Below, piece by piece: positions 13,072 to 16,174 of a DNA stretch of 20,644 bases. Where the stretch lies: positions 1 to 20,644 of the IMG/VR virus record IMGVR_UViG_3300012685_000047, one strand, 5' to 3'. Position 1 is the stretch's first letter. Every line of letters begins with the position of its first letter. Under the pieces are notes generated by a model. It was not told the origin of the DNA. It worked only from the letters and a program-made list of their open reading frames with translations, and ran no database searches. The DNA is from a virus. A program made the position numbers and the translations under genes.

Positions 13072-13813
13072 CACCGTCACCCCCCATTACGGTTGGGTGA
13101 AGCCGGAAGTCGCCGCGAGCGCCGCCACGTGGGGCGCGAAGCAAAACGGCGTGTTCGACCAAATCGACGCGCAAGTGTTCGCCAACCAGCAAGCCGGCGC
13201 GCCGGTCGGCGCCGGCGCTTTATGGTTCACGGCGACGCCGCCGGCCAATTGGCTGATTTGCAACGGCGCGGCGCTCGACACCACGACTTACGCCGCTTTG
13301 TTCGCCGTCTTTGGCTACACGTACGGCGGCTCGGGCGCGAATTTCAATCTGCCCAATTTCGTCAATGCTTTCCCGATGGGCGCGGGAACGCTGGCCGCGA
13401 CCGGGGGCGAGGCGACGCATGTCCTCACCACCGCCGAAATGCCAGCGCATAATCATCCCGCAACTGACAGTGGGCATCAGCATTTCGTCAATCTGGTGCA
13501 ATCTCCGCATACGCACACCTATATCGATCCAGGGCATCAACATGGCGGTGTTCTGCGGGCTACTGCGCAGGGCGCAGGGCAGGCGACCGGCCAGTTCCTT
13601 GGACAAACCGGCCTGACCGACAACTTTGGAACCAACATCACGATCCAGCCGGCCAATGCCAACGTGTCAATTACGGCAAGAAATGGAAACGGTGCGGCGA
13701 ATTGGTCCGATGTCGGTAATTCCTCCATCACTGTCGCCAATGCTGGCGGCGGCGCGGCGCACAACAATCTGCCGCCCTACCTCTCCATCAATTTCATCGT
13801 CCGGTATCAGTAG
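13064..13813 (+). CDS. Tail-collar domain short fibre protein, 249 residues
   Basis: This is a second putative receptor-binding fibre. Residues about 50-108 match the phage tail collar domain: PVGAGALWFTATPPANWLIC, NGAALDTTTYAALFAVFGYT, then FNLPNFVNAFPMGAG. A His-rich stretch follows (AHNHPATDSGHQH, SPHTHTYIDPGHQHGG; about 128-162), which in related fibres can bind metal ions within a trimer. The C-terminus (NNLPPYLSINFIVRYQ) is the usual ending of collar-domain fibres. I choose the ATG at 13064; the longer frame to 12944 overlaps the previous gene. DNA from about 13440 to 13740 is less GC-rich than the first part, again fitting a variable tip. Confidence 0.83.
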   Translation: MADTVTPHYGWVKPEVAASAATWGAKQNGVFDQIDAQVFANQQAGAPVGAGALWFTATPPANWLICNGAALDTTTYAALFAVFGYTYGGSGANFNLPNFVNAFPMGAGTLAATGGEATHVLTTAEMPAHNHPATDSGHQHFVNLVQSPHTHTYIDPGHQHGGVLRATAQGAGQATGQFLGQTGLTDNFGTNITIQPANANVSITARNGNGAANWSDVGNSSITVANAGGGAAHNNLPPYLSINFIVRYQ

Positions 13814-15363
13814 TGAGCTCGCAATTTCAACCACTGGAAATTCCGCCTGGCGTGGTCGCCAAGCCGACCAAGAAGATGCGCTCGAGCAATTGGGCGGAAG
13901 TCAATTGCGTGCGCTGGATCGAGCAGCAAATGGCCCCGATCGGCGGCCAGGCGCAATACAATTACGCCTTCGCCTCGCGCTGCAAACGCATTCATTCGTG
14001 GTACGACCTCAGTCAAGTGCTCCACATCGCCTATCTGTGCGAGGGCCACCTTTACGTCGACACCGGCGGCACGCTCACCGACATTTCGCCGACCCCGCCG
14101 ATTGTCATGCCGGCCCCGCCGGCGACCGGCGGCTTTGGCGACGGTGATTTTAGCGCCGACACTTTCGGCACGCCGCGCACCATCTCGACCATCCAGGCGC
14201 TCGACAAAACCCCTGACGCTTTCAGCCTCGCGAATTTCGGCGCGATTCTCTACGCGATGACCTCGCCCGACGGGCGTTTGCTGATGTGGGATCCGGCCGT
14301 CGGCGGCCACGCCGTGGTGCAGCCGGCGGCCTCGGGGCGCGGGCCCGTTCCGACCGGCCGCTTGTTCGTCGTCACGCAAGAGCGCTTCCTCATCATCTTC
14401 GGCTCGACGTCGGACGGCACGGCCGGCGGCGGTGGGTTCCGGCGCTTCGCCTGGTGCGATCAGGAGAACCCCGGCGCATGGGACTATGCCAGCGTCACCA
14501 GCCAGGCGGGCTTTCTCGACATCGAACCGGCGGCGCCGATCATCGCCGCGCTGGCGACCCGCTCGGGCGTGCTCTTCTGGACCGGGAAAAAGGCCTATGT
14601 CAGCCAATTCCTCGGCGCGCCGTATATCTACAATTACGTCGAGCTCGCCGAGGCGTGCACACCTTGGTCGCCGCAATCGGCCGTCAACACCGGCGGCCTG
14701 GCGCTGTGGTTTTCGCAGCAAGGCGTGTTTTCATTCGACGGCACGTCGGTCATGCCGGTTGCCTGCAACGTCCGGCCGTGGATCGATGACGACGTCGATC
14801 TTCTCAACGTGCGCTATCAGGCCTGCGCGGTGCATGTCGCCAATTTCAGCGAGTTTTGGTGGTTTTTCCCGCAAGACGGTCAGCCCGGAAACACCCGCGC
14901 CGTCATCTACTGTTACAAAGAGGGTTGGTGGGGCCAGGCGCGCATGGCCCGCTCGGCCGGGATTACGGCGAGCTATTCCTCGCACACCATCATGGCCGAC
15001 GGCCTGGTCGCTTTCGAGCACGAGGCCGGCAATGTCTATCCGGCCGCCGTCGAGTTGCCGTGGGCCGAGACGTTCGACTTGAACCTCAATTCGGGCGCGA
15101 AGCTTACGACGATCAAGCAGCTTTTGCCCGACGTCGAGGGCGATATAACAAATTTGTTATATTCGATCTTCTACCGCAATTCGCGCTCGACCGGCACGCC
15201 CGAGCTCCAAACCACGCCCAAGCCGGTCCGCTCTGACGGCTACGTCGACTTGCGCACCACCGGCCGCGACATCCGCCTGCGGATCGCGCTCGCCGGCCCG
15301 CAAGTCCTGCCGGTCACCGTCGGCCAGCATCTTGTCGACAGCGTCGCGCGAGGAGATCGGTAA
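13813..15363 (+). CDS. Putative tail nozzle / stabilisation protein (P22 gp10-like), 516 residues
   Basis: GTG at 13813 overlaps the collar-fibre TAG stop. The protein is built of many short beta-rich units, for example RLFVVTQERFLIIFGS, SGVLFWTGKKAYVSQFLGAP, TGGLALWFSQQGVFSFDGTS, NFSEFWWFFPQDG and AVIYCYKEGWWGQAR. Regularly spaced Trp and Gly residues fit a propeller-like fold. This matches podovirus nozzle proteins that plug the adaptor and close the tail. Position after the adaptor and fibres supports the role. I recognise the type rather than a precise family. A 20-base perfect AT-rich palindrome lies inside the gene near its 3' end. Confidence 0.65.
   Translation: MSSQFQPLEIPPGVVAKPTKKMRSSNWAEVNCVRWIEQQMAPIGGQAQYNYAFASRCKRIHSWYDLSQVLHIAYLCEGHLYVDTGGTLTDISPTPPIVMPAPPATGGFGDGDFSADTFGTPRTISTIQALDKTPDAFSLANFGAILYAMTSPDGRLLMWDPAVGGHAVVQPAASGRGPVPTGRLFVVTQERFLIIFGSTSDGTAGGGGFRRFAWCDQENPGAWDYASVTSQAGFLDIEPAAPIIAALATRSGVLFWTGKKAYVSQFLGAPYIYNYVELAEACTPWSPQSAVNTGGLALWFSQQGVFSFDGTSVMPVACNVRPWIDDDVDLLNVRYQACAVHVANFSEFWWFFPQDGQPGNTRAVIYCYKEGWWGQARMARSAGITASYSSHTIMADGLVAFEHEAGNVYPAAVELPWAETFDLNLNSGAKLTTIKQLLPDVEGDITNLLYSIFYRNSRSTGTPELQTTPKPVRSDGYVDLRTTGRDIRLRIALAGPQVLPVTVGQHLVDSVARGDR
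15143..15162. promoter_or_regulatory. Perfect 20-bp AT-rich palindrome inside the nozzle gene
   Basis: ATATAACAAATTTGTTATAT is its own reverse complement, with 18 of 20 bases A or T, inside a GC-rich gene. It is read as ITNLLY within a normal frame but uses ATA, ACA, TTG and TTA, which this operon otherwise avoids. It could be an operator, a binding site for a nucleoid protein or integrase, or a hairpin. No clear promoter hexamer pair surrounds it. Confidence 0.5.
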
Positions 15364-15506
15364 TGGCTGGAATACCGATGTGGATTGCTGCGGTTGGCGG
15401 ACCGCCCGCCGCCGCCATCACCGCGACCGAAGTTTGGATCGCTTCCTATGGCGGACCGCCGCCCGCCGGCGCGAATCCGGTCTGGATTTCGAGCGTAGGA
15501 GGCTAA
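15363..15506 (+). CDS. 47-residue microprotein with three WI-GG repeats
   Basis: The ATG shares its A with the nozzle TAA stop, and the gene ends at TAA 15504-15506. The sequence runs MAGIPMWIAAVGGPPAAAI, then TATEVWIASYGGPPPAGANP, then VWISSVGG. That gives three copies of WI(A/S)(A/S)xGG, the first two followed by PP. The frame fills the whole space between two structural genes, and its codon use is like the neighbours. The last codons contain the AGGAGG ribosome site for the next gene. Role unknown; a small tail component is plausible from its position. Confidence 0.65.
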   Translation: MAGIPMWIAAVGGPPAAAITATEVWIASYGGPPPAGANPVWISSVGG

Positions 15507-15785
15507 ATGGCCAATCAGCCGACCCCACGCACCCTTCAACCGCCGCCCGATCTTCCGAGCATGCCCGACGTTTCGGACAAGCTATCTGGCTATCTGCGCA
15601 ATTTCGCTCTGTGGTGTCGGCACGGCTTCGCCGACAAGATCAGCGCCTCTACGGCGCAGCCCGGAATCATGCTGCAGGCCTTTGACGCGCCGGCCGGCAC
15701 AATCCCGAAAGTGTTCATGGTCCGCGTCGACTCGGCCGGCGCGGTCAGCGCGACGCCGATCGGCCTTGGCGGCGGCAAGCCATGA
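15507..15785 (+). CDS. Hypothetical phage structural-region protein, 92 residues
   Basis: The ATG directly follows the microprotein stop, with AGGAGG eight bases upstream. The N-terminal 20 residues are Pro-rich (NQPTPRTLQPPPDLPSMPDV). A likely helix follows (SDKLSGYLRNFALWCRHGFA), then a beta-like segment (GIMLQAFDAPAGTIPKVFMV) and a Gly-rich end. No family is recognised. The one-helix, one-sheet pattern and the location suggest a small virion component. It overlaps the next gene as ATGA. Confidence 0.65.
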   Translation: MANQPTPRTLQPPPDLPSMPDVSDKLSGYLRNFALWCRHGFADKISASTAQPGIMLQAFDAPAGTIPKVFMVRVDSAGAVSATPIGLGGGKP

Positions 15786-16174
15786 ACGCGCCCGCGTCCG
15801 TTCCTCTCGAGCAAGCCGTCGCCTATCGGATGAAGCTCGCCAAAGCGCTCGAGCGCGCCGGCGGCTTGTACGAGCTCGGCGACCTCCTCGAGCGCATCGC
15901 CGACGGCCGCATGCAAGCTCATGTTTCACGTGAAACTCTCGCCGTAACTGAAATCAGCGTCTACCCTCGGCGGCGCGTCCTCACTATCATCATCCTCGTT
16001 GGCGACTTGGACGATGGCGAGAATTTGCACCGGCAGGTTTTCGACTTCGCGCGAAAAATGGAGTGCGACGCGGTCGTCGCGCAAGGACGTGTCGGGTGGG
16101 CGCACCTGGCGAAATCCCATGGCTGGAAAACCGTGTCGACAAACATGGTGTTCCGGAAAGAGGTTTCCCCATGA
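15782..16174 (+). CDS. Phage protein, possibly GNAT-like fold, 130 residues; contains a parS core
   Basis: ATG at 15782 overlaps the previous stop as ATGA. An N-terminal helical part (EQAVAYRMKLAKALERAGGL, then YELGDLLERIADGR) precedes beta segments (ETLAVTEISVYPRRRVLTII). The C-terminal half has LVGDLDDGENLHRQVFDFAR and CDAVVAQGRVGWAHLAKSHG, ending in WKTVSTNMVFRKEV. The closing pattern of helix, GRxGWxxLxxxHGWK and a last strand recalls acetyltransferase-fold phage proteins, but no acetyl-CoA loop is evident, so catalytic activity is doubtful. Codons 48-52 (VSRET) form a perfect parS core. It overlaps the next gene as ATGA. Confidence 0.6.
   Translation: MNAPASVPLEQAVAYRMKLAKALERAGGLYELGDLLERIADGRMQAHVSRETLAVTEISVYPRRRVLTIIILVGDLDDGENLHRQVFDFARKMECDAVVAQGRVGWAHLAKSHGWKTVSTNMVFRKEVSP
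15923..15936. other. parS: parS-like centromere site (ParB-binding palindrome)
   Basis: GTTTCACGTGAAAC is a perfect 14-base palindrome and the core of the bacterial chromosomal parS consensus TGTTTCACGTGAAACA. With flanks it reads TGTTTCACGTGAAACT, 15 of 16 matches. It encodes VSRET in the 15782-16174 gene using TCA and CGT, codons the neighbouring genes rarely use. One 14-base match is expected less than once in 10,000 windows of this size under equal base frequencies. The sequence match is certain; ParB binding is inferred. Confidence 0.75.

Follow-up and report, generated by a model that had tools for sequence, protein, structure and literature searches.

The palindrome and the gene that contains it

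The sequence analysed here, referred to below as the window, is a stretch of 20,644 nt of viral DNA. A gene at positions 13813-15363 (+ strand) encodes a protein of 516 aa, which PHROGs places among the virion structural proteins (phrog_3287, E value 5e-53). Distant relatives of this protein carry the annotations 'phage stabilization protein' or 'tail protein', and sequence searches of Pfam and the PDB returned no match. The product was termed a nozzle in the initial annotation of this DNA, an identity that is plausible, judging from the context of the gene.

A perfect 20-bp palindrome, ATATAACAAATTTGTTATAT (half-site ATATAACAAA), is situated within this gene at positions 15143-15162, with no strand assigned. 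Its coordinates and letters, its perfect symmetry and its richness in A+T are exactly as given in the initial annotation. The A+T content of the palindrome is 90%, and the GC3 of the surrounding gene is 82%. No other perfect even palindrome in the window is as long, the runners-up being 14 bp in length, and no other copy with up to three mismatches was found in the window or in the phage's own record. The reading frame is gAT ATA ACA AAT TTG TTA TAT, representing D I T N L L Y at codons 444-450. The avoidance of ATA and TTA that had been remarked upon was borne out, as these represent 4% and 2%, respectively, of their codon families.

The expected number of perfect 20-mer palindromes of any composition is 0.037 per window based on base composition and 0.047 based on codon resampling. 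The computed expectation is approximately twice the frequency proposed originally, about one per million positions. No A+T-rich (at least 70%) 20-mer palindrome was obtained in 1500 codon-resampled windows, nor was any A+T-rich palindrome of at least 16 bp obtained in 4 Mb of Markov simulation. Taken together, these values indicate that the length of the palindrome is mildly unusual and that its composition is very unusual. Palindrome counts and lengths in 786 kb of sequence from relatives were as in the Markov simulation. Only one of the 3456 possible encodings of DITNLLY is palindromic, namely the one used, and its probability under the codon usage of the window is 2.2e-7; this figure concerns a single peptide picked post hoc in a type of scan that covers many windows, and is not a p-value.

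Distribution and retention among relatives

The set of relatives consisted of 80 IMG/VR loci encoding the structural gene. Four of them (L003, L002, L005 and L010) have the same 20-mer at the same codon positions and the other 76 lack it, and a search of IMG/VR with a degenerate pattern for the peptide context yielded no additional carrier. Contig names point to two or three separate source datasets for these carriers, which are the window's four nearest relatives, with protein identities of 93-96% and synonymous codon differences of 12-27%. The carriers also come first when the relatives are ordered by synonymous distance, an ordering that is independent of the palindrome and so avoids a circular definition of the carriers.

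Three non-carriers lie at synonymous distances of 27-30% from the window, similar to that of the carrier L002. Two of these, L006 and L004, encode the same peptide, DITNLLYS, without symmetry, the seven codons differing at three positions in L006 and at five in L004; in the third, L007, six of the seven palindrome codons differ. Relatives with the same amino acids and no symmetry had been named in the initial annotation, together with a lack of any linked transcript or binding change, as evidence against a functional site. That objection carries by half: L004 and L006 reveal that the symmetry is not a requirement of the protein and that the site is clade-specific, confined to a small group of phages. 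Bootstrap values in the gene tree are low in the region of the carriers (62 and 48 for the grouping of L004 with L002), and absence of the site from L004 is therefore indistinguishable from loss or recombination. Towards its 3′-end, the L004 copy of the gene (genome G005) contains many synonymous changes to A/T-ending codons relative to all relatives. Its codon pattern is possibly the result of recombination with a differently biased phage.

A run of 13 codons at positions 15127-15165 (+ strand), which includes the palindrome, is shared unchanged by the window and the four carriers; no other run of this kind in the gene is as long. At codons where the five proteins agree, approximately 18-23% of rare codons were kept in all five. 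Under a model based on codon rarity, the probability that all seven palindrome codons would be kept is 0.06 for the nearest relative, 0.02 for two, 0.002 for three and 0.0003 for all four. Although only the window was used in picking the site, the number of relatives was set at four, the point at which the palindrome ends; this choice calls for a correction by a factor of up to 7, giving p ~2e-3. The palindrome was also the top-ranked 7-codon window over all shared genes (3.76, versus 1.74 for the best elsewhere). In the carriers the DNA may be conserved beyond the needs of the protein (p ~3e-4 raw, ~2e-3 corrected); the site is absent from L004, L006 and L007, and a short recombined tract common to the carriers would look alike. 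Retention letter for letter while the remainder of the gene drifted suggests, at the level of sequence, that the palindrome is recognized by something.

Neighbouring features and searches outside the phage group

The initial annotation placed the palindrome 760 bases before a parS core and just before a group of microproteins. The first of these placements was confirmed, in that a parS-like core, GTTTCACGTGAAAC, is found at positions 15923-15936, approximately 760 bp downstream. The parS-like palindrome lies approximately 0.6-0.9 kb downstream of the 20-mer in these phages and is a separate feature, common to more distant relatives. The parS-consensus palindrome, TGTTTCACGTGAAACA, occupies positions 15922-15937, where it provides codons for HVSRET in the gene at 15782-16174; it is found in the window and at loci L010, L002, L004, L006, L009 and L011. 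The match to TGTTTCACGTGAAACA is exact in genomes G002, G003, G005, G006 and G011; G001, G004 and the window each have a single mismatch, and G001 and G004 read HVSHET. In G010, a divergent relative, GTTTCACGTGAAACA is present in a different place, at position 2754. In every instance found, HVSRET is encoded by parS-like codons. The parS centromere-like palindromes (TGTTTCACGTGAAACA) and the 20-mer are alike in that both are perfect or near-perfect, are formed by synonymous codons and reside in neighbouring genes of the structural operon in the same phages. They differ in sequence, and the parS-like site reaches more distant relatives whereas the 20-mer does not.

The association with the microprotein group did not hold, since the stretch at 15364-15507 is missing from the palindrome carriers L010, L002 and L005. 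This stretch, a short glycine/proline-rich, repeat-like ORF region after the structural gene, is absent from most relatives and expanded in L003.

Two other sets of palindromes were observed in the genomes of the relatives. A conserved 21-bp palindrome, (T/C/G)ACGTGATTATAGATCACGT(A/G), is located in G001 (12953), G002 (17178) and G011 (470), and looks from its sequence like an early-region operator. A palindrome, CGTCTTAATTAAGACG, is accompanied by a near copy 68 bp away in G002 (8106 and 8174) and in G011 (36414 and 36482), and these may be regarded as a candidate operator pair.

A second copy of the 20-mer, elsewhere in the phage or at host attachment sites, had also been proposed as something to look for. 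None was found, and the alphaproteobacterial genomes searched do not contain the exact 20-mer. Among the genomes of 84,980 species, exact matches were limited to a few records, none of them alphaproteobacterial and most of them A+T-rich. Nor was there enrichment at up to two mismatches in 385 alphaproteobacterial genomes, of which 4 contained a match, versus 8 with the reversed control sequence. A search for the host via prophage relatives of the structural gene gave matches that were only 19-36% identical.

Three possible affiliations of the sequence were considered and set aside. An attachment site is disfavoured, as no identical core was found in alphaproteobacterial genomes and the integrase-like ORF is distant. 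A motif common to phage families was rejected because the other 18-mer matches in IMG/VR all fall in records or loci of no more than 48% G+C, in unrelated contexts, and resemble chance matches. Finally, a 19-bp match situated 5′ of a chemoreceptor gene in pAt plasmids of Agrobacterium is confined to one plasmid family and has no obvious connection to the phages. Among the papers searched, ATAACAAATTTGTTAT was absent, and the six containing AACAAATTTGTT seem, by title and abstract, to be unrelated.

Possible origins and functions of the palindrome

The reading that best accommodates these results, although it is held weakly (a probability of approximately 0.4), is that the palindrome is a young, clade-specific site for a two-fold symmetric DNA-binding protein. 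The site would have been gained through synonymous changes in an ancestor shared by the window phage and the four carriers. It would then have been kept by selection, because a homodimeric protein, encoded by the host or by the phage, would recognize it on duplex DNA within the late structural operon, with a presumed effect on late transcription or on prophage silencing. Mutation without function follows closely behind this reading, and an RNA hairpin comes after both. Of the functions suggested in the initial annotation, an operator and a hairpin each fit the retention of nucleotides among the nearest relatives; the remaining one, a recombination or attachment core, is not supported.

Several properties of the site bear on recognition by a protein. 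The perfect 20-bp symmetry falls within the 14-30 bp of two-fold symmetric sequence expected of an operator, and both symmetry and conservation extend to the central AATT, the bases of which would form the unpaired loop of a hairpin. Autoregulated phage repressors usually have several operator copies. No near copies (up to six mismatches) were found in the near-complete carriers G001 and G002, and the palindrome is single-copy in these genomes and in the window. No DNA-binding protein private to the carriers was seen in a comparison of G001 and G002 with G010-G012, and no sigma-70-like −35/−10 pair, the promoter type covered by the search, was detected at the palindrome. In comparison with the palindromic operators of homodimeric HTH repressors and antitoxins (Xre, MarR, TetR and HicB types), the palindrome is alike in its length of approximately 20 bp, two-fold symmetry, A+T richness and short central A-tract; it differs in being intragenic, single-copy and without an adjacent regulator or promoter hexamers. 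Since L004, L006 and L007 lack the site at a distance like that of L002, any constraint would have to be recent or local, and a short tract spread by recombination could produce the same picture. A broader proposal, in which a recent intragenic site spelled in rare synonymous codons of a late virion gene, a dimeric host or phage protein that binds it and the parS-like palindrome would together make the tail operon a platform for DNA-binding proteins, is improbable.

In an Acinetobacter prophage (L084, 10107-10158), two tandem copies of the identical 20-mer lie upstream of hicA/hicB-like genes, and a similar arrangement was seen in a contig of Acinetobacter tandoii (L109, 4393). By its position the pair is a candidate HicB operator. 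All that follows from these observations is that a sequence of this kind can occupy an operator-like position.

Templated mutation offers the strongest competing explanation, and one that is only somewhat less probable. Templated quasipalindrome correction is a known mutational mechanism by which mismatches in imperfect palindromes are mended. Here it would have acted during replication to perfect an imperfect palindrome favoured by the peptide, and the product would then have been inherited neutrally within a small clade. Partial symmetry is indeed already present in relatives (6 of 10 pairs in L006, 7 of 10 in L015), and all four base differences between L006 and the carriers mend mismatched pairs, as in known products of the process. 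Perfect 20-mers occur at the background rate in the relatives, and templated repair would explain the rare A/T-ending codons without selection. However, the repairs from L006 go both ways, two per arm, and at least two templated events would be needed. Moreover, rare codons should decay in G+C-rich phages, yet all seven codons are kept in four relatives (p ~2e-3, corrected); retention of rare codons across synonymous codon differences of up to 27% sets this case apart from the usual products.

A hairpin in the late mRNA, affecting its stability, translation or processing, is unlikely. The predicted structure, at positions 15133-15172 (+ strand), has an 8-bp A/U-rich stem and an AAUU loop, with flanks that extend it weakly. 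The folding energies of the 20-mer (−4.4 kcal/mol, z −4.8) and of the 40-mer (−12.6 kcal/mol, z −4.3) are better than those of all shuffled sequences, but the A/U stem is weak and the z value is only −1.7 in a 100-nt context. The loop is symmetric although a hairpin needs no symmetry there, and the structure, distant from all start codons, lies approximately 200 nt upstream of the stop codon, with no terminator-like site found at it. The sequence is invariant among the carriers, so that no compensatory changes are seen in the predicted local fold.

It is quite doubtful that the cluster of rare codons (ATA, ACA and TTA) serves to slow translation near the C-terminus, the symmetry being accidental: ATA is found at the same position in the non-carriers L004, L006 and L009, but ACA and TTA are not common to them, and a translational pause needs no perfect symmetry. 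A core for attachment (attP/attB) or other site-specific recombination is the least credible alternative, for despite the perfect symmetry and the presence in G002 of what we read as a tyrosine-integrase-like protein, the site is mid-contig in an intact gene far from that ORF (36185 versus 124-1344 in G002), the 20-mer is found in no alphaproteobacterial genome, and aligned relatives have no rearrangement or insertion at the site.

If the palindrome is under selection, it would plainly illustrate how a regulatory DNA element can evolve through synonymous change within a phage structural gene, and near relatives that have and lack the palindrome would serve as natural controls. If it is not, it would be an instructive instance in which templated mutation and shared descent mimic a regulatory element.
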